Assembly: GCF_022965805.1 (NCBI RefSeq)
Contig: NC_133114.1
Location: forward strand, 9,382,261 to 9,446,260
Source of the DNA: Primulina eburnea
Lineage: Eukaryota > Streptophyta > Magnoliopsida > Lamiales > Gesneriaceae
Length of the DNA stretch: 64,000 bases
Reading direction: 5' to 3'
Shown here: positions 1 to 11,925 of the stretch, piece after piece
How positions within the stretch are numbered: position 1 is the stretch's first letter
Layout of the letters: the number at the start of each line of letters is the position of its first letter
The notes under the pieces: model-generated
What the model was told of the DNA's origin: nothing
Database searches by the model: none
What the model saw: only the letters and a program-made list of their open reading frames with translations
Translations under genes and position numbers: made by a program

Positions 1-975
1 AGGTCGAAGATTTGAACCACCCATTGCCTGACCCTGCATCCTCTGCTGAACAGTCGTCTGAGATCCGGAACCAGATCCTGCTCCACCTCGCAACTGAGGG
101 CAATTCTTCTTAAGATGACCCATCTCTCCGCACTGAAAACAAGCTCCCGCGGCTGATCGGCACTGCTCCGATGGATGGTTCTTCCCACAATGCACACAAG
201 AAACCTTCTTCTTATCAAAGCGAAAAACACCGCTAGACCGTGATCCAGATCCAGAAGAAGAAGAACCAGATTTCTTGAAAGACTGAGATCGAGGGCTCAA
301 AGTACTCGGAGGTCTGGAAGAAAGAATAGACCTACCACGCCGGAGACTGATCTCTGCCTGGCGACACCGGTTCACTAACCCATCATAAGAAGTAGGATTA
401 TCGCAGACAGTGACTCGATCAAAGATCTCCTGGTTAAGACCCTGAAGGAAATGGTCATACTTGGCCTCAGAACTGCCACTAATATGAGGAGCAAAGGGTA
501 ACAACTCGAAGAACTTCTGCTGATATTCATCAACAGACATACTACCCTGCTTAAGATTCAGAAGTTCAATCGTCTTTGCCTGACGAAGGGCTGGAGGAAA
601 ATATAGCTGCATGAAAGCTGCACGGAAATCGGCCCAAGTCACCCTACCCTGAGACTGGACTATCGGCGCAGAAGTCGATCGCCACCACTTACGCGCACGG
701 CCCTCGAGAAGAAAACTAAGGGTCTCTATCTGCTGCTCTTCGGTGCACTGGAATGCACGGAAACAACTCTCCATGCGCTCTAACCAATCCTCAGCATCAT
801 CGGGAGTCTCACCACCAACTAAAGGCTTAGGCCCCATCTGAATGAAACGGTGCATCTCAAAACGCCTAGGGCCATCCCGACGATGACGATGTTCACGATG
901 ACGCCTACGATCATCCTGGTCACCCCAACGACCTACACTCCCCTGACTACTCTCATCACCAAAGTGGTCAGCCAT
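1..975 (-). CDS. Gag polyprotein of Ty3 element A (partial)
   Basis: From an ATG at 973-975 the minus strand stays open to the left edge (325 codons), so the C-terminal part and pol lie outside the window. Gag forms the virus-like particle and packages element RNA in the cytoplasm. An Arg/His-rich start is followed by a capsid-type gag domain (roughly residues 40-190) with motifs such as WLERMESCFRAF and ARKWW. A Ser/Arg-rich linker leads to two zinc knuckles, C-x2-C-x3-H-x4-C near 171-212 and C-x2-C-x4-H-x4-C near 109-150. The same pair of knuckles occurs in the gag at 24770-26539. No stop or frameshift was seen. The start fits the usual leader position about 80 nt after the PBS. Confidence 0.85.
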   Translation of the reverse strand, partial: MADHFGDESSQGSVGRWGDQDDRRRHREHRHRRDGPRRFEMHRFIQMGPKPLVGGETPDDAEDWLERMESCFRAFQCTEEQQIETLSFLLEGRARKWWRSTSAPIVQSQGRVTWADFRAAFMQLYFPPALRQAKTIELLNLKQGSMSVDEYQQKFFELLPFAPHISGSSEAKYDHFLQGLNQEIFDRVTVCDNPTSYDGLVNRCRQAEISLRRGRSILSSRPPSTLSPRSQSFKKSGSSSSGSGSRSSGVFRFDKKKVSCVHCGKNHPSEQCRSAAGACFQCGEMGHLKKNCPQLRGGAGSGSGSQTTVQQRMQGQAMGGSNLRP

Positions 976-1057
976 CGCTACAAGATAGAATGGGGAAAAT
1001 GGTAAAATGGTCAACGAAAATCCCAAAACAGAATCTATATCCCAAAATCATATGCAT

Positions 1058-1069
1058 GCTCTGATACCA
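1058..1069 (-). other. Primer binding site, tRNA-iMet
   Basis: The minus strand reads TGGTATCAGAGC, the complement of the 3' end of initiator tRNA-Met, 4 nt inside the 5' LTR of element A. It primes minus-strand DNA synthesis and fixes the element orientation. Confidence 0.9.
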
Positions 1070-2080
1070 TAAATGTAGTGACCCGTTCCAGAATCACCTA
1101 CTAATCAAGAACTAAGCATGCAATTAACTTAATCAAAAACAATCAGAGATAATTGCGGAAAATGGTCAACCAACGATAGTTATACAACCCAAAAGATATC
1201 CAGAACAACTTAGAAATAAAATATGCGGTACAACCATATCGAATCAAATGGTACTGAAGAAATAACTCAACCGGCTACTCCACGTCCTCCTCATCCTCCT
1301 CCTGAGCCATCCAACCTGAGGCCTGCCCCGTGGGAAATGGGGTGTCCAAGATAAACAAAACCGAGGACGTGAGCGATAAGAACGCCCAGTACAAAAGCAT
1401 GAGTATACAAGCCTATATGAAATGCACATGCTATGATATGATACCAGGGTAGTCAAGAAACAGGAGTCACAAAAGATCTCAATATGCTCAGTCTAGAGGC
1501 GCCAAGTGGATAGTGCCGCGCGGTACTCCTCTGGGTCACTGCATCCACTACAAGATCAGACGTGGACCTAAAATGTCCCGGATCACCGAAGCCCTCCGGA
1601 CCCGTCGGCCACTGTGTACTCTCGGTGTCCATGCGTCCACAAGACAGGGCTGAGCGGCCCCACAAGATATAGCTTATCTCGAAAGAGATACAGCTCAACA
1701 ATAAAGGCTATCTCGAAAGAGATACGGCTCAAGATGAAATGTAACATGCAGTAATAAACGTGACATAATAGCATGCATCATATGACATATATCAATGCAC
1801 CAAATAATCATGCAACACATATAAGAATGTATACTCGACCAGGATATCTCGGATAGTACTTTCGTACCTCAAACCAGCAGATCCTAACAATCCGCCCTAG
1901 AATCAAGCCTGCGTCCGTAGCCCACTGATGTCGCTAACTCCCAACTAGAGCACAGCTCCGCTACAAAACCAGTAGCTCCCCGCTAGTGCCTGAACCTCGG
2001 GAAAAGACTAGAAACCAATCGGAAACGACTAAAATGCTCTGGAACGCTCGGACTTGGCGAGAAGAAGTGAAGCCTCGCGC

Positions 2081-2091
2081 CTCTATTTATA
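2081..2091 (-). promoter_or_regulatory. LTR TATA box (TATAAATAGAG)
   Basis: TATAAATAGAG on the minus strand, about 280 bp from the LTR start and immediately downstream of the inverted-repeat cluster. This is the normal place for the U3 core promoter. Confidence 0.7.
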
Positions 2092-2098
2092 GCCAACG

Positions 2099-2313
2099 TT
2101 CGGACGATCCGATCCACTTCGGAAGCTCCGATCCGGTACACTTCGGACGATCCGAACCCTGCATGTCTTCTACGTGTCCAGCCACCTGGCTCGGACGATC
2201 CGAACCATGATCGTACGATCCGAATCCTGCATGTCTTCCACGGTTCCATCCACCTGTCTCGGACGATCCGAATCCTGATCGGATGATCCGAACCCTGTTC
2301 GGTCCTTCCGATC
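2099..2313 (-). repeat. Cluster of TTCGGACGATCCGAA-type inverted repeats in U3
   Basis: Several copies of a short inverted repeat, core TTCGGA-CGA-TCCGAA, some degenerate, lie between the LTR start and the TATA box. Copies are joined by a second repeated phrase containing CCTGCATGTCTTC. The position suggests an upstream promoter or silencing-target element. Different motifs with the same layout are seen in other LTRs of this window. Confidence 0.75.
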
Positions 2314-2369
2314 CCACCGAAATATAATTAATCCAATAATTAACTCAAATTAGGCATCGGGATACTACA

Positions 2370-5300
2370 GTAAATGACTCAAATAAACCTCCACCATTTC
2401 CTCATGCATTAACAAATTATAAAAAACAAAAAAGTGATTCTGATATCTATGAAGTTTTTAAACAAGTAAAGATAAATATTCCATTATTAGATGCTATTAA
2501 ACAAGTACCTTCCTATGCAAAATTTTTAAAAGACTTATGTACTGTGAAGAGAAAATTGCATGTGAAGAAGAAAGCATTCTTGGCTGAACAAGTAAGTTCT
2601 ATTCTTCAAAACAATTCTAGTTTAAAATATAAAGATCCTGGTTGTCCAACAATTTCATGTATTATTGGAGAAAATAAAATTAAAAAAGCTTTGTTGGATT
2701 TGGGAGCAAGTGTGAATTTACTTCCTTATTCAGTTTATGAAAAACTTAATTTAGGGGAATTAAAACCCACTTCTGTTACTCTTTTACTGGCGGATAGGTC
2801 AATCAAAATACCTAGAGGTATTGTAGAAGATGTGTTGGTTCAAGTTGATAAATTCATATATCCAGTAGATTTTATTGTTTTGGATACACAAACAATAGAA
2901 GTACATAATGAAATTCCAGTAATATTGGGACGACCATTTCTAGCAACTTCAAATGCTTTAATTAATTGTCGAAATGGAATAATGAAATTGTCTTTTGGAA
3001 ATATGACTCTAGAACTTAATGTGTTTAATTTATGTAAACAACCAAGTATTAATGAAAATGAAAATGAAGATGATAATGAAATTCAAACAATTGTGGAAGA
3101 AAATATACAAGAAGAAAACTTAAATCAACAATGTGAAGTTTTTTCAGTAGAAAGTTTGGAGTCTGAAAATAATTTTAAAGAAGATGATAATATAAAACTT
3201 GAATTAAAAGCTTTACCATTAGAATTGAAATATGTATTTCTTGGTCAAAATAAAACATTTCCTGTTGTAATTTCTTCCACTCTTCTACCAAATCAAGAAG
3301 AAGATTTAATTCAATTACTTAAAAAATATAAAAATGCAATTGGATGGACTTTGAAAGATATAAAAGGTATGAATCCTTTAATTTGTACACATAAAATTCA
3401 CTTGGAAGAAAATGCTAAAACGTATCAACAACCGCAAAGAAGGTTAAATCCACATATGAAAGAAGTTGTTAAGAATGAAGTATTAAAACTATTAGACGCT
3501 GGAATTATCTATCCAATCTCAGATAGTAAATGGGTAAGTCCAACACAAGTAGTACCTAAAAAGTCAGGCATCACTGTTATAAAAAATGAAAAAGGAGAGT
3601 TATTACAAACTAGGATTCCATCTAGTTGGCGTATGTGTATTGATTATAGAAAATTAAATGATGCAACTAGAAAAGATCATTTCCCACTACCATTTTTAGA
3701 TCAAATTTTAGAAAAAGTAGCAGGAAATTCTTATTACTGTTTTCTTGATGGGTATTCGGGGTATTATCAAATACCTATATCATTAGAAGATCAAGAAAAA
3801 ACTACTTTTACTTGTCCTTTCGGAACTTTTGCATTTAAAAGAATGCCATTTGGTTTATGCAATGCTCCGGCTACTTTTCAAAGATGCATGTTAAGTATTT
3901 TCAGTGATATGATTGAAGAATATGTAGAAGTTTTTATGGATGATATAACTGTTTTTGGAAACTCATTTGAAAATTGTCTTAAAAATCTAGAAAAAGTATT
4001 AAAAAGATGTGAAGAAAAAAATCTTGTTTTAAATTGGGAAAAATGTCATTATATGGTTAAATCTGGGATTGTCTTAGGACATGTGATATCTGAAAAAGGA
4101 ATTGAAGTTGATAAAGCCAAAGTTGATGTTATTTCTAATTTAACATCACCAAAAACGGTCAAAGAAGTTCGATCATTCTTGGGTCATGCAGGATTTTATA
4201 GAAGGTTTATAAAAAATTTCAGCATAATATCTAAACCAATTTCAAATCTTTTAACAAAAGATACACAATTCGAATGGACTCAAAAATGTGAAAATTCTTT
4301 TAAAAAAATAATTAATCTTTTAATTACATCACCTATTTTACAACCTCCAGATTGGTCTTTACCATTTGAATTAATGTGTGATGCAAGTGATTATGCTATA
4401 GGAGCTGTGTTAGGACAAAGAAAAGAAGGAAAACCTTATGCAATCTATTATGCTAGTAGAACCTTAAATAGTGCCCAAATAAATTATTCAACTACTGAAA
4501 AAGAATTACTTTCAGTAGTATTTGCATTAGATAAGTTTCGATCTTATTTAATTGGTTCTACTACTATTGTTTTCACCGATCATTCTGCCATAAAATATTT
4601 ATCAAATAAACAAGATGCTAAGCCAAGATTAATACGGTGGATTTTATTGTTACAAGAATTTGATATTATAATTAAAGATAAAAAAGGAAAAGAAAATGTT
4701 GTAGCCGATCATTTATCTAGAATAATGACTGAATCATCTCATAATGAAATACCAATAAATGAAAATTTTCCAGATGATCAGTTGTTTTATGCTACTATTA
4801 TGCCATGGTTTGCTAATATTGTAAATTTTCTTGTGACAAATAAAATGCCTTCTCATTGGAATTCACAGGATAAGAATAAATTCTTGATAGAAGTTAAAAA
4901 ATTTTATTGGGATGATCCTTACTTATTTAAGTATTGTCCTGACCAAATTTTTCGACGATGCATACCCGACAATGAAATAAGTAATGTTATTAAATTTTGT
5001 CATTCTGAAGCATGTGGAGGTCATTTTTCATCCAATAAAACAGCTACAAAAATCTTACAATGTGGATTTTATTGGCCGTCTTTATTCAAAGATACGCATT
5101 TATTTTGCAAATCTTGTGAAAATTGTCAGAAGATGGGATCAATTTCAAAACGAAACATGATGTCTTTAAATCCAATCATAATTATTGAAATATTTGATAG
5201 TTGGGGGATAGATTTTATGGGTCCATTTCCATTATCTTTTGGATATAAGTACATTTTAGTCGCTGTTGATTATGTTTCAAAATGGATTGAAGCGATTGCA

Positions 5301-6089
5301 TGTAGAACTAATGATCATAAAGTTGTTATAAAATTTTTAAAAGAAAATATTTTTAGTCGATTTGGAATACCTAGAGCAATAATTAGTGATGGGGGAAGTC
5401 ATTTTATAAATAAATCATTTTCTTCTTTGTTAAGAAAATATGGCATTACACATAAAGTTTCTACCCCATATCATCCTCAAAGTAATGGTCAAGTTGAACT
5501 AGCAAATAGAGAAATAAAACAAATTTTAGAAAAAACAGTTAATCCAAATCGAAAAGATTGGTCTTTAAGATTAACTGATGCATTATGGGCATATAGAACT
5601 GCATTTAAAACATCATTAGGGATGTCACCATATAGGTTAGTTTTTGGTAAGCATTGTCATTTACCGGTTGAACTAGAACATAAAGCTTATTGGGCAATTA
5701 AAGCATTTAATACTAATTTAGATGATGCATCTAAATTAAGAAAATTGCAAATAAATGAACTTGAAGAATTAAGAAATGATGCATATGAAAATTCAAAGAT
5801 TTATAAAGATAAAACTAAAGCCTTTCATGATAAAAATATTATGAGAAAGTCATTTGAAATTGGACAAAAAGTTTTGCTTTATAATTCTCGTTTGCATTTA
5901 TTTCCAGGTAAACTAAGATCGAGGTGGTCAGGACCATTTATAGTCAAATTTGTTTATCCTCATGGTGCTGTTGATATTGAAAATCCTAAAAATAATGATG
6001 TGTTTAAAGTTAATGGGCAAAGACTTAAGCCTTTTATAGAAAATGAAATTTTTAATGATGAGTTTATGCCTTTATATGATCCACAATAG
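2370..6089 (+). CDS. Pol polyprotein (end of gag, protease, RT, RNase H, integrase), Athila-like
   Basis: One open frame without stops from the junction with element A to TAG at 6089 (about 1239 codons). The first GTG at 2544 is not a real start, because coding continues upstream. In order: a gag-pro linker; aspartic protease D-L-G-A near 2694; reverse transcriptase with M-C-I-D-Y near 3631 and the F-M-D-D catalytic box near 3931; RNase H with C-D-A-S near 4377; integrase zinc-binding HHCC near 5000-5140; integrase core with D near 5212, D near 5391 and E near 5492 (S-N-G-Q-V-E-L). Every catalytic box is present, so the enzyme part may still be functional, although gag is interrupted at 2370. 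Codon use is strongly A/T-biased, like the two ORFs downstream and unlike the Tekay elements. Confidence 0.9.
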
Positions 6090-6226
6090 CTGTTTGATAT
6101 TTTCATTTTGTTTTGCAGATTCTAGTTCATTTCCCGGTTAAGTGGCGGATAACGGTACTCCGTGACTGTTTAAGTCGGTTTCTTCAGTTTTCCCAAAATA
6201 ATTGAAATATATATAATAATAATAAT
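6090..6226 (+). other. Pol to accessory ORF spacer with splice-acceptor-like site
   Basis: A T-rich stretch ends in TTTTGTTTTGCAG at about 6107-6119, which looks like a 3' splice site. It sits just after pol and before the accessory ORF, where Athila-type elements are thought to splice a subgenomic mRNA for their extra gene. No donor can be placed because the 5' leader is outside the window. Confidence 0.4.
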
Positions 6227-6757
6227 ATGGATGTGTGTATTATGAATCTTCGTAAATATTTTGCTTGTTTACCTGATAATGCGTTGAAAAAAATTTATAA
6301 AGCTAGATGTGAGCGGCTAAGGTTGATGATGTTATATGGCATACCGGATGATATCCGTTTGATAATTGAAGCAAAAGTCCGATTGGTTGGGGAAGCAAGT
6401 GAATTAATAATAAGACATATGCCAGGATTTGGTAAAAGCACATATGCCAAAAAGCGAAGAGCTAAACGTATAGGTGGATGTCATAAATGTGCAACGTGGA
6501 CTTGTAAAGGAAATTGCAAAAATGTTGGAATGACATCAATGAATAGAGAAGATAAAATTTTATTCATTAAGAATGGTCTGAGTAAAGAGCCTTTGGATAA
6601 TTTTCTAGAGGTTCTTGATACGCATTCTAGTGGGTACGTGCAAAATGAACTTCTTAAACTATGGTGGCAATTTCAACAGGAGGAATATCAATATGGACGG
6701 TGGAATCAGCCTTACAAAGATCCTACTGTAGTAACGCATATCTATTTAGATAAGTAA
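6227..6757 (+). CDS. Accessory ORF: cysteine-rich nucleic-acid-binding-like protein (176 aa)
   Basis: The frame starts at ATG 6227, 138 nt after pol, and ends with TAA. Residues 69-81 read GKSTYAKKRRAKR, a strongly basic stretch, and Cys85, Cys88, Cys93 and Cys97 follow at once (C-x2-C-x4-C-x3-C). This order (Gly-Ser-Tyr-Ala, Arg/Lys block, Ile-Gly, then C-x2-C) is the hallmark of the cysteine-rich nucleic-acid-binding proteins encoded at the 3' end of carlaviruses and related betaflexiviruses. Some of those are nuclear, bind RNA or DNA, and suppress silencing or alter host transcription. The N-terminal 60 residues look helical. The C-terminal 80 residues, with a Trp-Trp pair, have no counterpart I recognise. 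The ORF sits where Athila elements carry an env-like gene. Function in this element is inferred; homology versus chance similarity needs a profile search. Confidence 0.6.
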   Translation: MDVCIMNLRKYFACLPDNALKKIYKARCERLRLMMLYGIPDDIRLIIEAKVRLVGEASELIIRHMPGFGKSTYAKKRRAKRIGGCHKCATWTCKGNCKNVGMTSMNREDKILFIKNGLSKEPLDNFLEVLDTHSSGYVQNELLKLWWQFQQEEYQYGRWNQPYKDPTVVTHIYLDK

Positions 6758-6936
6758 AAATATACACAATTTCGTCTTGGGAATCTGACGTTAAAAGACC
6801 CTGTTTGCCAATTTATAAGAAAATTGGATGGGAAGCATATCCTCGACTCATAGAAGGCGTTGAAGCCGTTACTGAACGTAAAATCAGAGGAAGATGTGAG
6901 CCACAATCACAACTACGCTGTATATATTTGTTTTAA
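6754..6936 (+). CDS. Possible -1 frame extension of the accessory ORF (about 60 codons)
   Basis: Beginning inside the stop region of the 176-codon ORF, the -1 frame stays open to TAA at 6934-6936. It reads like protein (a W-E-S-D start, K-K-I-G-W-E-A, then a basic K-I-R-G-R stretch) rather than random AT-rich sequence, and it lacks its own ATG. It could be a former C-terminal part separated by a small indel, or the product of ribosomal frameshifting. No slippery heptamer was recognised. I do not know the family. Confidence 0.3.
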   Translation, partial: VKIYTISSWESDVKRPCLPIYKKIGWEAYPRLIEGVEAVTERKIRGRCEPQSQLRCIYLF

Positions 6937-7058
6937 TTTTGTCATTTTTATTTTCTTTTAATAATAATAATTTCCTGTTCAAATATTGACTTTTGGCATG
7001 TTACGTTTATAAATTCATATGCTGTGATCTAACAATTACAGAAAACATATTTCTCAAC

Positions 7059-7688
7059 ATGTCAACGTCCACGGTAAGTAAAATCAAAAATATTTGTGTA
7101 TTTTGTGGATCTAGTGCAGGAAAAGATTCAATTTATGAAGATGTAGCAGAAAAGCTTGGAATAACACTTGCTAAAAGAAAGATTCATTTAGTATATGGTG
7201 GTGGTGAAGTTGGCCTCATGGGAAAAGTTGCAAAAGCTGCGCATGCAGGTGGAAGTGAAGTCTTAGGCATTATTCCGATTACTTTAGCCAATCTTACAGG
7301 ACCAACAATAGGAGAAGAAATGCAAGTGGACAACATGTATGAACGAATTACTCAAATGATTGAACATTCAGATGCTTTCATTGCTCTGCCAGGAGGTTTA
7401 GGTACTTTGGAAGAAATATTTCATACTGTTTGTTGGGCACAATTAAATATCCACAATAAGCCAATTGGTTTGTTAAATGTTAACAATTATTATGATAAAC
7501 TGTTATCGTTTCTTGATGATGTTGTGGAACAGGGATTTATTTCATTAGCTTCGCGAAGGATGTTAGTTTCTGCTACAAGTGAAGGTGAACTTATTGATTT
7601 ACTGCAAGGATTTAGTCATGAACCAGATCCATTCTTATCTCAACTTAATTGGCCAACATCCAAGAGTAAGAAAAGAAAATTCATGTGA
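7059..7688 (+). CDS. LOG: LOG family: cytokinin riboside 5'-monophosphate phosphoribohydrolase, intronless, retrotransposon-borne
   Basis: LOG enzymes release active free-base cytokinins from their riboside monophosphates in one step, in cytosol and nucleus. The 209-residue frame has the family signatures: VFCGSS (14-19), YGGGEVGLMG (46-55), and PGGLGTLEE (111-119) with the catalytic Glu. Arg96 stands where the second catalytic Arg is expected, but the Lys that usually follows it is Ile here. Length matches plant LOGs (about 210-220 aa). Start: ATG 7059 gives the conserved N-terminus; the upstream 22 in-frame codons lack ATG. The C-terminus SKSKKRKF is basic and NLS-like. Plant LOG genes normally have several introns; this copy has none, which suggests capture through RNA. 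It lies between pol and the 3' LTR of an Athila-like element and shares its A/T-rich codon use. No poly-A tail or target duplication flanks it, so a separate LINE-type retrocopy is less likely. Confidence 0.88.
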   Translation: MSTSTVSKIKNICVFCGSSAGKDSIYEDVAEKLGITLAKRKIHLVYGGGEVGLMGKVAKAAHAGGSEVLGIIPITLANLTGPTIGEEMQVDNMYERITQMIEHSDAFIALPGGLGTLEEIFHTVCWAQLNIHNKPIGLLNVNNYYDKLLSFLDDVVEQGFISLASRRMLVSATSEGELIDLLQGFSHEPDPFLSQLNWPTSKSKKRKFM

Positions 7689-9132
7689 TGCTAAACTTGC
7701 GATTCAACGGTATGTTTTTAATGTTTTTTTTTTTAAGGTATGAATAATTTCTTCTTCTTCTTCTTCTTCTTCTTCTCTTCTTAGTTTTTTTTATTATATA
7801 AAAAATAAAAATATGTAGTAATAATAATAATACTTTTTAGTTCAATGTCGAGTAAGGTGTCAGTAAAATGCACCTGAGACACATTAGTTAATAATTATCG
7901 GAAAATCGCAATACACTAGATTTTAATATTCATTATATTCAAATTACAGACTACAAGAAAAATTAGTTTTCATATGTACCAATTTATATACATATATATT
8001 TTGATCAATTAATATAAAATATATAATAGATGTGTTTATTTATTTACATATATGTATATAATTGTATGTGTTTTCAAATAAAATAATTTCTAAAATTTTT
8101 ATGAGAATATAGTTAAAAGATATGGTTTGTATGGTTGTTAACATGTATAATTGAAAGAATTCTTTTGTAAAAGTATAATATATACTCACACATCTTTTGT
8201 GAGTGAGTGGTGAGAAATGAGAAAACAATTAATAAACTTTTATTGATTATTAAAAAATGGTTTATTACAAGAATATAAATCCCCTAAAAAAAAAATATTT
8301 ATTGAAAAAAAAAAGAAGTAAATAAATAACGAACTGCAAAATAGTTTATTCAGTGTAAATTTTTTTAGATTTGATTGATGTACTATCAATGTGTTCTAAA
8401 AACATCAATCAATGTTCTCAAAAAAAAAAAAAAAAAAAAAAGAAGAAGATTTGTTTGTGCTAGATAAGTTCCAAAGGAAATCGGATGTATCCGTTATATA
8501 AATGTTTATATATATACATATATATATATTATGGTAGAATGTTTGGATAGAAAATTTTATATTATTGTAAAATTTTGCAGTCACGTTATTTAAAAAAAAA
8601 AAAAAACAATAACAAAAAAAGAAAAAAAGAAAAAAGAAAAAAAGGGGATTTTATTCTTTGTAAATTTTCCTATTTTGTTTTCAATATTAGTTTAATTAAT
8701 TGTCTGCTTTAATACTTGGCCTTTTTCGATGAGAGTTAATATTCATTCCAACTCCATGAGTGAAAACTAGCTATTCCGTAAACATTTTGACCTGAAAGAT
8801 TATATGGAGTTGAGGCTTTTACAATAATATTCTTGATATTATACATGTTATGGTGGGTGGTGTGAATTATCTTTTTGACTATATTATTATAAATTTTTTT
8901 AGAAATTTAAAAATTATATATATATTGTTACTTTATATATTATGTGAAAATAAGAATAAAAACACATCTAATTATATATTATTATATTAAACGAATATAT
9001 ATATATATATATAAATCGGTATATGATTTTGTTTTTAATGAATATGTTTGTATTTGAATATATAAAAGGAATAAAGAATCTAGGTTGTGACTTTCCGATA
9101 AATTTTATTACTAAGAGACTAGTAATAAGATA
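7689..9132 (+). other. 3' noncoding region of the Athila-like element
   Basis: AT-rich, with no convincing ORF on either strand. It holds a (TTC)n run at about 7749-7780, an A-run near 8418-8442, (AT)n runs near 8507-8530 and 8996-9012, and A-rich tracts near 8590-8642. Long noncoding stretches between the extra gene and the 3' LTR are normal in Athila elements. Confidence 0.6.
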
Positions 9133-9143
9133 GTGTGGGGGTG
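9133..9143 (+). other. Polypurine tract of the Athila-like element
   Basis: GTGTGGGGGTG lies directly before TGATGAAAC, the proposed 3' LTR start. It would prime plus-strand DNA synthesis. It is the only G-rich tract in this AT-rich area. Confidence 0.6.
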
Positions 9144-9715
9144 TGATGAAACTTAAAATTAATAATTTATTATATGTTAAAACCTGTATTTTAAAATTTT
9201 AAGTTTCATTAAAATTATAAATTATGTTATTTTAGTATTGTTTGTTTATATTTAAATGTCTTACTAAATTTGTTTTATTTTCAGGTTTTTTACGTGTTGG
9301 TAAAATAATGATAACTCAAGCTAGAAAATTCAAATGGAGGTGACTCAAACATGGTTGGAATCCTTGAGAAGTTATTTACAACTTTGCAGAAGACATGATT
9401 GCCTAAAAAGCTCATTAAGATGATCAAATTGTGCAAAGATCAAAAGGAGGACACATTTACTTTTACTATGACCATCATTTAGTAAAAAATTCATAACTAT
9501 TTCAATATTTATCCAAATGAGGTGAATCAAGTGGCCAAACTCATCTACACAAAATTCCCCACATGTTTGTGGCCTTAATCAGAGTCAAAGTGGTGAGAAA
9601 AGTCGTGGAACAAGGCATTGAAAGAAGGGACATGGAATTGGAGTTGAGGAGACAAAGAATACTATTACAACTACATGGCATTAATAGAATTTTTGACTCT
9701 TTCTCTCATTTGGCC

Positions 9716-9724
9716 TATAAATAG
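9716..9724 (+). promoter_or_regulatory. LTR TATA box (TATAAATAG)
   Basis: TATAAATAG inside GGCCTATAAATAGAGGCC, about 570 bp into the 3' LTR. The copy in the 5' LTR would drive the element. The one here could drive transcription rightward into flanking DNA. Confidence 0.65.
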
Positions 9725-10151
9725 AGGCCTTGTGCTAGCTTGAGAATCATTCTATCTCATTGTAAAATATAGTGTGAGTGTGTATCAAAGTTCTAAGTTT
9801 AAATATATTTCTTTCATTTTCTCAACTATGAGTGATATTTTAGTGTTGATCAAAAGTAAGTTCATGGCAAGCTAAATTTATTATGTCAAGGTGAAGAGGT
9901 GCATTCTTGGTGAAGTAAGATTGTTTATATTTTGTATATTATTTCTTTATCTCTTTTCATTTAGCTAACTTATTTTTATTGTAGGTATAAAAATTAATTA
10001 TTTGTTGTTATCAATTTACATCAAATGCTTGATACCATTAAAGTGGTTATCTTGATTTGTTGTTTAATTTTGATACAATAAATATTTCATCACTTATTAT
10101 TATATATATAGATATATATATATATATATATGTATATTTATATAATAATAT

Positions 10152-10211
10152 CATAATATTTCATTTAGGCGATAGCGTGGCTCTGCCGGTTGTTCTAAAT
10201 GAAATATTATG
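10152..10211 (+). repeat. LTR hairpin 1 (17-bp stem, 26-nt loop)
   Basis: CATAATATTTCATTTAG (10152-10168) is the exact reverse complement of 10195-10211. The 26-nt loop contains GGCTCTGCC, which can form a small inner stem. It lies about 430 nt downstream of the TATA box, so it would be in the transcribed R/U5 part. Confidence 0.75.
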
Positions 10212-10366
10212 ACTTAATACTAACATCTAACAATCTAACATTTACTTTTTCGCAATTAACTTTTATTTTTCGCATCTAACATTTACTTTCTTGCAACTAA
10301 CTTTTACTTTTCCGCAACTAACATTTACTTTATTGCAACTAACTTTTACTTTACCGCAACTAACTT
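10212..10366 (+). repeat. Minisatellite between the two LTR hairpins
   Basis: About seven imperfect copies of a 21-23 bp unit of the form AACTTTTACTTTNCCGCAACT, separating the two hairpins. Confidence 0.6.
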
Positions 10367-10440
10367 ATTAAATCAATATATTTCATTTAGGCAATAGCGT
10401 GGCTCTGCCGGTTGTTCTAAATGAAATATAATGATTTAAT
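10367..10440 (+). repeat. LTR hairpin 2 (24-bp stem, 26-nt loop)
   Basis: Arms 10367-10390 and 10417-10440 pair over 24 bp with one mismatch. The loop (10391-10416) differs from that of hairpin 1 by one base (GCAATAGC instead of GCGATAGC), while the outer stem sequences differ more. Confidence 0.75.
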
Positions 10441-10828
10441 TTAACATTTAATTTATGCAATTATTTATTTATATAGTTATAATTATAATCATAGGTACCA
10501 TATATAAAATATCGGTTAATTCGGTATTTTCTATAGTGAGAACTATATTAGATTATGTGTGTGTTTAATTTTCTTGGAACCATTATTTATGGTAGTTTCT
10601 TTTGTTTCACTTTTAGTTAAACAATATTACATAAACCAAGAATAAATCCTCAAGCCTTGACAATATTTATAATTTGTAAACTTCAGTCTTGCATTTGGTA
10701 ATCTATAAATTAATAAATTTAAACTCAAAATAACCTCTCTGTGGATCGATCTCGTACTTACGAAATATATTACTTGCAGATAACCTACACTTGGGTGAAT
10801 TATTATTTAAGTAGTAAAAATGAGATCA

Positions 10829-11368
10829 AATTTCCATGGATTTTGTGACGCACTTGCCGAGATTCTCCAGAGGTTGTGATGCGATTTGGGTCGTGATTGA
10901 TCGATTGACTAAATCTGCATGCTTTATTCCATACAAAATGACATACCGACAGGAGACCGAGTGTTCTTGAAGATTTCACCTTTCCGAGGAGTTGTCAGAT
11001 TTGGCAAGAAAAGAAAATTGTATCCACGATTTATTGGGCTATACGAGATTCTTGAGAAGATAGGAGATCGTGCCTATCGACTTGCATTGCCGCCATCTCT
11101 ATCTGGAATACATGATGTCTTTCATGTATCTATGCTGCGGAAGTATCTCCCTGATGATTCTCATATTATTCAGCCAGACGAGGCAGAACTTGACGAAAGT
11201 CTAACTCATGTCGAGAAACCGATCCAGATTATCGATTGTAAGAAAAAGCGACTCAGAACGAAGACTATTCTTTTTGTGAAAGTTCAACGGAATCGTCATG
11301 GCATTGAGGAAGCCACCTGGGAGACTGAATCAGACATGAAACAGGAGTTCCCAGACTTATTTCGTTGA
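10829..11368 (+). pseudogene. Tekay-like integrase/chromodomain remnant
   Basis: Bases from about 10840 match the start of the integrase core seen intact at 28250-28370 (M-D-F-V-T, then D-R-L-T-K-S-A-C-F). Near 10950 the sequence jumps to the region after the core ([11 protein letters not shown]), losing roughly 500 bp and shifting frame. The rest is open to TGA at 11368 and ends in a chromodomain-like tail (V-E-K-P-I-Q-I, then W-E-T-E), typical of chromoviruses. Upstream coding was displaced by the Athila-like insertion. Confidence 0.85.
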
Positions 11369-11620
11369 TGTGAGTCTTTTATTTCAGCTTCGCTATTTCA
11401 GTTGCTATTATTCAATTTATTGCATCTGTTTATTGACTCTGATATGATTGCCTGAGATTTCGGGGACGAAATCATGTCTTAGGGGGAGAGAAATATAATA
11501 CCCGATATTTTATATGTTAATCTGCGAAATGATTTATTATAAATTGATATGATTAGGAGAGGATTAATCGGGACACGATTTGATTCAGTATGTGAATATG
11601 TATGTGCGAGGACAGTACAC

Positions 11621-11860
11621 CTCGCGCATATGCGCGACCAGGAGGTGCGCATATGCGCGAGATGGCCAGAGGGCCTCGCGCATATGCGTGAAGTTAGTGC
11701 GCGCATATGCGCGTGTGCAAGGAAAGGTTGCGAGTCTAGCGAACCTCGTGCATATGCGCGCCCCATCACCGCGCATATGCGCGAGCTGCCGAGGAGGTTA
11801 TTGCCGAGACCAGTAGGTCTCGCGCATATGCGCCGAGTGATGTCGCGCATATGCGCGAGA
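11621..11860 (+). repeat. Eight copies of a CGCGCATATGCGCG palindrome in U3
   Basis: Eight copies centred on CATATG, the best being TCGCGCATATGCGCGA, a perfect 16-bp palindrome. Spacing is uneven (about 20-50 bp), and copies differ mainly by transitions at CpG sites. Overlapping ORFs here on both strands are by-products of the palindromes. Confidence 0.85.
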
Positions 11861-11900
11861 CGTGTTGCTTCAAGAGATGAGCGACCTAGCTTAAACCATT

Positions 11901-11925
11901 GGGGGGGGGGGGGGGGGGTGGGGGG
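11901..11925. repeat. Poly-G run (18 G, then TG and further G)
   Basis: An uninterrupted run of 18 G followed by TGGGGGG. It could form a G-quadruplex on the plus strand. Run length is prone to assembly error. Confidence 0.8.

Follow-up and report, generated by a model that had tools for sequence, protein, structure and literature searches.

In the window, the 64,000-nucleotide stretch of the Primulina eburnea genome analysed here (C14:9382261-9446260), we find an Athila-like Ty3/gypsy retrotransposon that carries an intact 209-codon gene of the LOG family between pol and the 3′ LTR. There is next to no doubt that LOG is a standard gene of this element. As an explanation of the whole, we consider it probable that an ancient, intronless LOG gene and an ORF resembling carlavirus nucleic-acid-binding proteins (NABPs), here ORF3, are inherited with the element and kept by selection; its anatomy, its copy number, the co-divergence with pol and the constraint are directly supported. 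Our assignment of the predicted protein is to the LOG superfamily as such, and does not extend to the cytokinin-specific enzymes. Plant LTR elements often carry extra ORFs of unknown function. Here the enzyme fold is known, the catalytic pair is retained, selection has left a measurable trace and the partner protein resembles a viral one, which makes the use to the element directly testable.

Element anatomy and genomic copies

The LOG frame, from ATG to TGA, contains the motifs YGGGEVGLMG and PGGLGTLEE and the catalytic R96, as an earlier reading made from these letters (the sequence-only reading) had described it; the intact pol to its left and the polypurine tract and LTR to its right are equally confirmed (Table 1). 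That reading also called LOG A/T-rich like pol, which holds roughly, LOG being the less A/T-rich of the two (GC 0.356 vs 0.284). Profile search recovers the order PR-RT-RH-INT in pol, with the protease match (22.6 bits) slightly below its cut-off of 24.3 and the remaining domains above theirs.

Table 1. Features of the window copy and its surroundings (window coordinates)
Feature	Position	Strand	Evidence
Right part of unrelated element nested in gag, its LTR at 1070-2369	1..2369	-	Repeat 1070-2369 = L069:5098-6417
gag 3′ end, runs into pol	2370..2543	+	Alignment with L070
pol: protease, RT, RNase H, integrase; single open frame, 1181 aa	2544..6089	+	ORF and profile matches
Candidate 3′ splice site ttgttttgcag, before ORF3	6116..6118	+	By eye
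Short A/B-conserved tract upstream of ORF3	6130..6167	+	25-nt identical run 6143-6167
ORF3, 176 aa, carlavirus nucleic-acid-binding-protein-like	6227..6757	+	Carla_C4, Viral_NABP
Near-invariant tract between ORF3 and LOG	6774..6911	+	A/B comparison; 138 nt
Candidate 3′ splice site ctaacaattacag, 17 nt before LOG ATG	7040..7041	+	By eye
LOG-like phosphoribohydrolase gene, 209 aa, intronless	7059..7688	+	ORF, profile, structure matches
Polypurine tract AGTGTGGGGGTG	9132..9143	+	Sequence; adjoins LTR start 9144
3′ LTR, TATAAATAG at 9716	9144..10818	+	Paired with 5′ LTR left of window

The partner 5′ LTR (L069:1702-3378, from C14:9373962 on) is found left of the window, starting about 8.3 kb from its edge. 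The two LTRs differ by 10 substitutions in 1674 aligned bases (K2P 0.006); at the rates used for LTR dating, 1.3e-8 and 7e-9, this would place the insertion at 0.23-0.43 My, a young age. The element is flanked by the target duplication AAATG, and the final CA of its 3′ LTR is missing. The integrase beyond that LTR, already recognised as unrelated, belongs to another gypsy element, the target into which the window element inserted. Its gag is in turn split by a nested insertion with the target duplication GTAAA, at a site that is uninterrupted in the C8 copy. We note that this minus-strand insertion (window 1-2369) is another LTR element.

A second copy of the same family (family A), C8 (L070/L071), has the same gene order over about 11.8 kb overall, LTRs that are 99.6% identical (6 substitutions in 1631) and a perfect 5-bp target duplication, TCTGT. 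In a separate family, B, pol is 78% identical to that of A and the gene order is the same, while the LTRs of the two families are unalignable except for about 126 bases at the LTR end; the full family-B copy, C9, has the target duplication ATCAC. LTR pairs, target duplications and a primer-binding site are thus seen in three full copies, and the LTRs have the TG..CA ends typical of LTR retrotransposons, apart from the CA missing in the window. In each, TGGCGCCGTTGCCGGGG, which we take to be the complement of the tRNA-Asp 3′ end, directly follows the 5′ LTR. None of the three has every gene whole: gag is split in the window, and the gag-pol frame is broken in C8 and C9.

Using LOG as a query against its own genome (812 Mb), we scored the best 150 of 1383 candidates, 80 of them from family A (82-100% identity to the window LOG) and 70 from family B (67-68%); the corresponding searches with ORF3 and with the Pfam LOG profile scored the best 150 of 1249 and of 1042 candidates. 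With 150 scored copies in two families, a chance origin of the pol-LOG arrangement is excluded. Internal stops are absent from 57 of the 80 family-A LOG matches (23 have stops) and from all 70 of family B, counts that come from the best matches only and are biased to intact ones. Many of the listed family-B matches have the same score, and the LTRs of the C9 copy (L072:5588-7158, L073:6426-7996) differ at 1 of 1571 positions, which, as far as the best matches go, suggests a recent burst.

We read 45 distinct places, 36 of family A and 9 of family B, fetched by LOG or ORF3 and many of them by both. ORF3 and LOG adjoin in 44 of them, with LOG just downstream; at the 45th (L068), the stretch read holds LOG and part of the tract between the two genes, and ORF3 is listed about 4 kb upstream. 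Among places fetched in this way, no copy lacking LOG was seen. Together with the 5′ LTR and the C8 copy with its target duplication, this bears out the earlier claim that LOG is internal cargo. LOG is full-length and stop-free in 30 of the 36 A places and 5 of the 9 B places; it is cut in one A place (L020), and in 2 of the 4 other B places it merely starts five bases late in the alignment.

Two observations concern the neighbouring elements. Both the window element and the C9 copy have landed in the integrase gene of another gypsy element, and their insertion points fall at almost matching codons, following ..EWK and around ISMDF/TMDF (window 10819-10920 with L069:1601-1701; L072:5491-5587 with L073:7997-8090), a possible nested-insertion hotspot used by 2 of the 3 full copies. 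At window 11600-11920, the neighbouring element contains CGCGCATATGCGCG-type repeats followed by a long G run.

The LOG protein and its pocket

The window LOG matches Pfam Lysine_decarbox with 125.7 bits (cut-off 27), and its best solved relative is At2g37210 (E 8.1e-63), to which it is 55% identical in a structural alignment. Its AlphaFold model (pLDDT 89) finds 2a33_B as the best PDB match (TM 0.79/0.95). The LOG fold and the PGGxGTxxE motif are both present.

In CgLOG, published structural work proposes Arg99 and Glu122 as the catalytic residues, Met96, Lys100 and Glu121 as the adenine site, and Met96, His97, Lys100, Glu125 and Trp129 as a prenyl site common to AtLOG3 and CpLOG (PMC4979012). 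The window LOG keeps the catalytic pair as R96 and E119, and has Y94, I97 and H122 where the shared prenyl site has His, Lys and Glu. Among 122 element-type rows, the catalytic Glu is found in all and the Arg in 118. The pocket Lys position holds L/I/M in 113, K in 8 and H in 1; the Glu125 position holds H/Q in 109, E in 8 and other residues in 5; the pocket His is retained in 41. All 120 canonical LOG1/3-type rows have Lys, His and Glu at these positions. We read the replacement as a change of substrate after capture with hydrolysis retained, and it could also reflect a weakened cytokinin activity. It is fairly likely that the protein is a hydrolase on some nucleotide; LOG would then cleave a nucleoside 5′-monophosphate to the free base where the element replicates.

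Whether that nucleotide is a cytokinin precursor divides two readings. LOG may activate cytokinin in the classical way and so promote division of the cells in which the element replicates: it has the fold and the catalytic dyad of type-I LOGs, and the carlavirus protein p12 is described as inducing hyperplasia (PMC12172455), such that both accessory genes could act on proliferation. Given the changed adenine/prenyl pocket, we hold classical cytokinin release to be possible and rather doubtful. In fact, the three residues replaced in the window are those shared by AtLOG3, CgLOG and CpLOG, and Ala changes at AMP-binding or catalytic residues are reported to have nearly abolished the activity of CgLOG on AMP, Ser19 excepted (PMC4979012). 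If cytokinin nucleotides are indeed its substrate, LOG gives a selfish element a means of tuning cell division.

Alternatively, the enzyme may no longer make cytokinin and may remove or make another nucleotide product, for example one of defence or stress, as one half of a counter-defence pair with ORF3. This would account for a kept Arg/Glu dyad beside a pocket replaced in most element-type rows, and it would suit a partner of the carlavirus type, a kind of protein described as suppressing RNA silencing (PMC12172455). However, two Xanthoceras rows, P0123 and P0203, retain the canonical pocket, with P0203 placed on the clade's first branch; the first role may therefore have been cytokinin release. 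We consider action on another nucleotide somewhat unlikely; if it is true, the enzyme would mark out a host pathway which elements have to disable. Such probability as is left falls to a minor or non-enzymatic role of LOG.

ORF3, conserved tracts and candidate expression signals

The sequence-only reading missed both the carlavirus-NABP-like ORF and the conserved tract downstream of it. ORF3 scores above the cut-offs of Carla_C4 (28.3 bits, cut-off 20.9) and Viral_NABP (26.7 bits, cut-off 23), and contains a basic stretch and a CX2CX4CX3C motif. A protein search returned 145 relatives, with PF01623 in all 120 listed and with Orobanche, Citrus and Rhamnella among the named plants; in viral_contigs, 164 pattern matches gave no confirmed relative. 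The top viral matches of the predicted ORF3 structure are flexivirus silencing suppressors, at E 0.09 or worse. Because the model is of low confidence (pLDDT 65), this structural likeness to viral proteins is only suggestive. Carlavirus proteins of this kind are described as RNA silencing suppressors, and p12 of the carlavirus chrysanthemum virus B as a transcription factor (PMC12172455). By analogy, ORF3 may bind nucleic acid and dampen RNA silencing.

Compared with the window, the longer tract is 91-94% identical in all 9 family-B places; of the 36 family-A places, 21 match it at 100% and the others at no less than 97.9% within the part that aligns. It contains a run of 78 nt identical in A and B, whereas the longest such run in 3.5 kb of pol is 29. 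In the 36 family-A places, ORF3 ends after 176 codons in 27 and earlier in 4, has indels in 4 and is absent from 1. Since family-A ORF3 stops before the tract, its conservation there does not serve the ORF3 protein. The shorter tract is 92-97% identical in 9 of 9 family-B places. We note that these near-invariant tracts are common to both families despite a pol dS above 1.

A genome search with the tract DNA scored the best 40 of 926 candidates. Rfam gave no match at E<=1 for 6050-7100, folding of the longer tract revealed nothing unusual (z -0.39), and the second conserved motif had no exact match in viral_contigs. The idea of a conserved coding frame overlapping the tract, as the Citrus model P0080 has it, was rejected by eye, as a length change in family B closes the frame. 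The longer tract could instead stem from recombination between the two families, against which the partial protein-level match of P0080 speaks weakly.

ORF3 and LOG may be expressed from element RNA that is either spliced or initiated internally. Both candidate acceptors in Table 1 have counterparts in family B, the acceptor-like TTTTTATTTCAG at the place matching 6116..6118 and an acceptor-like site at the place matching 7040..7041, and a donor-like GTATAA lies 3′ of the primer-binding site in both families. Acceptor- and donor-like sites are common in A/T-rich DNA. In its strongest form, the joint reading would be a two-gene module for host manipulation in an ancient retrotransposon lineage, with a viral-type silencing suppressor and a LOG re-tooled for a new defence or hormone nucleotide, both selected across eudicots and joined by a near-invariant RNA element through which their expression is controlled. 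We regard this as improbable, if worth stating: were it true, the element would resemble a retrovirus in which a counter-defence region has replaced env.

Descent, selection and relation to known systems

Between families A and B, LOG has an NG86 dN/dS of 0.197 (dS 1.24) and ORF3 of 0.211 (dS 1.41); the values are 0.103 (dS 1.15) and 0.065 (dS 1.47) for two parts of pol and 0.258 (dS 0.84) for gag. At about 1.2, dS is near saturation, and the LOG ratio is 0.27 by LWL85 and 0.06 by ML. As dS is alike in LOG, ORF3 and pol, LOG and ORF3 were most simply inherited with pol. Within families, with rows containing indels or stops left out, dN/dS is 0.30 for A LOG (92 pairs, dS>0.02), 0.40 for A ORF3 (78 pairs), 0.51 for B LOG (7 pairs) and 0.57 for B ORF3 (6 pairs), a weaker constraint that is expected if drift after insertion is added. 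Very probably, then, LOG is kept by purifying selection, which implies that the element has a use for it.

In a tree of 139 proteins (117 element-type, 21 host and 1 bacterial, after 5 of odd length were dropped), all 117 element-type LOGs group as a single clade (support 99/94) that excludes the 21 host LOGs. The clade spans several plant orders, with the family Malvaceae represented, and includes Primulina, Populus, Reevesia, Diplodiscus and Xanthoceras. Its rows were chosen as those matching the window LOG best, and most are metagenome proteins that are element-like by tree position only. The host rows are of the LOG1/3 type plus AtLOG8, with the LOG5 and LOG7 types left out, and include two proteins of P. 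eburnea itself (P0319, P0332).

We read the linkage of LOG to the element directly in Primulina only; for other plants, it is drawn from gene models and from contigs that agree in length. The Citrus model P0080, outside the tree set, joins ORF3 and LOG domains, the Xanthoceras model P0123 joins LOG to a stretch like the element's gag, and the pairs P0002/P0122 and P0014/P0220 are ORF3 and LOG matches from the same source on contigs of equal size.

Host LOG1 genes of Primulina (C11 and C2) are split near residue 40 of a query made of the last 70 residues. In that search (best 150 of 859 candidates scored), 15 host-like places of at least 63% identity stop at residue 40-46, while element copies continue to 53-59. 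With the first 86 residues of host LOG1 as the query, the 150 matches listed of 984 candidates are all unbroken element-type copies, with no host exon among them. Lacking at least the intron on the C-terminal side, the element LOG looks like a processed copy, which fits the capture through a spliced RNA that had been proposed.

The unbroken frame and the young window insertion would also suit a recent event, in which a host Primulina LOG mRNA was lately picked up as a functionless hitch-hiker. The sequence-only reading had named selection or recent capture; against recent capture stand the dN/dS of 0.20, a LOG as diverged as pol and a clade of several orders. In fact, the element LOG groups with the element-type LOGs of other orders and not with P0319 or P0332, and the gene order recurs in the separate family B. 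Tree and dS thus speak against recent capture, unless horizontal transfer of the whole element explains the tree, and we reject it as very improbable. That a host LOG gene merely lies beside a retrotransposon fragment is rejected as virtually impossible, given that LOG sits between paired LTRs both in the window and in another copy, one with a perfect target duplication, and given the 80 family-A and 70 family-B matches among the best 150.

We therefore return to the reading of an old, inherited gene. A plant LOG would have been taken long ago as an intronless copy, with one origin in our data, by a high-copy Athila-like element whose env position holds ORF3 and LOG as accessory genes; since then, LOG would have passed on with pol under purifying selection. 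In public annotations, LOG copies of retrotransposons appear as "LOG3-like" or "LOG6", or are fused with ORF3 (P0080, P0121, P0126, P0128). Some plant "LOG" gene models are retrotransposon genes, P0121 of P. eburnea for example, and such misnamed genes may inflate the counts of plant LOG families.

By its features, the element is best called Athila-like. One RNase H region is found in pol, and the profile search gave no match to RVT_3 or a chromodomain at E<=1; a single RNase H and no chromodomain are described for Athila, as opposed to Tat or chromoviruses (PMC6317226). Similar to the Athila clade of the Ty3/gypsy OTA superclade (Athila4-1, Diaspora, Bagy-2, Cyclops-2), it has this pol order, extra ORFs and long non-coding DNA between pol and the 3′ LTR, a 5-bp target duplication and a tRNA-type primer-binding site. 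It differs in having an NABP-like ORF and LOG at the env position and a gag without the Athila ORF-1 domain PF03078, which found no match in C8 gag, where Retrotrans_gag scores above its cut-off. PF03078 is reported in 16% of Athila elements (PMC6317226) and is not a required feature.

ORF3 resembles the cysteine-rich NABPs of carlaviruses and flexiviruses in its profile matches above cut-off and in the basic stretch beside four cysteines, but it is longer (176 aa in A, 181 in B) and retrotransposon-borne. The element LOG shares with plant LOG1/LOG3 the fold, PGGxGTxxE and the catalytic Arg and Glu; in contrast to them, it has no introns, its pocket Lys and Glu are mostly replaced and it forms a separate clade, and the window LOG additionally differs at the pocket His.

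A LOG-family domain in a Gypsy element is itself not new, since YgdH, tied to the LONELY GUY family, is already reported for such elements, a precedent that the sequence-only reading missed. Alvarado-Marchena 2022 (PMC9289625) places YgdH in the LTR-element consensus of Citrus sinensis and C. clementina, and of Populus trichocarpa without a copy filter, and cites Steinbauerova 2011 for an earlier report. Our data meet these elements at two points: Populus proteins fall in the element clade, and the Citrus model P0080 joins both domains. In its section 12, that work lists the domain only, without a partner ORF, a selection test, a pocket analysis or a LOG tree (PMC9289625). In the literature searched, which leaves out most subscription journals, we found nothing that joins LOG and Gypsy elements with a carlavirus-type gene, with selection or with a pocket change. 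The pairing with ORF3, the evidence of selection, the pocket change and the near-invariant 138-nt tract thus appear to be new within that literature. A parallel case, as described in the same source, is the AlkB-type RNA demethylase of Phalaenopsis Gypsy elements, a host-type enzyme likewise acquired and kept, and found also in flexiviruses; it concerns another enzyme and another group of elements (PMC9289625).
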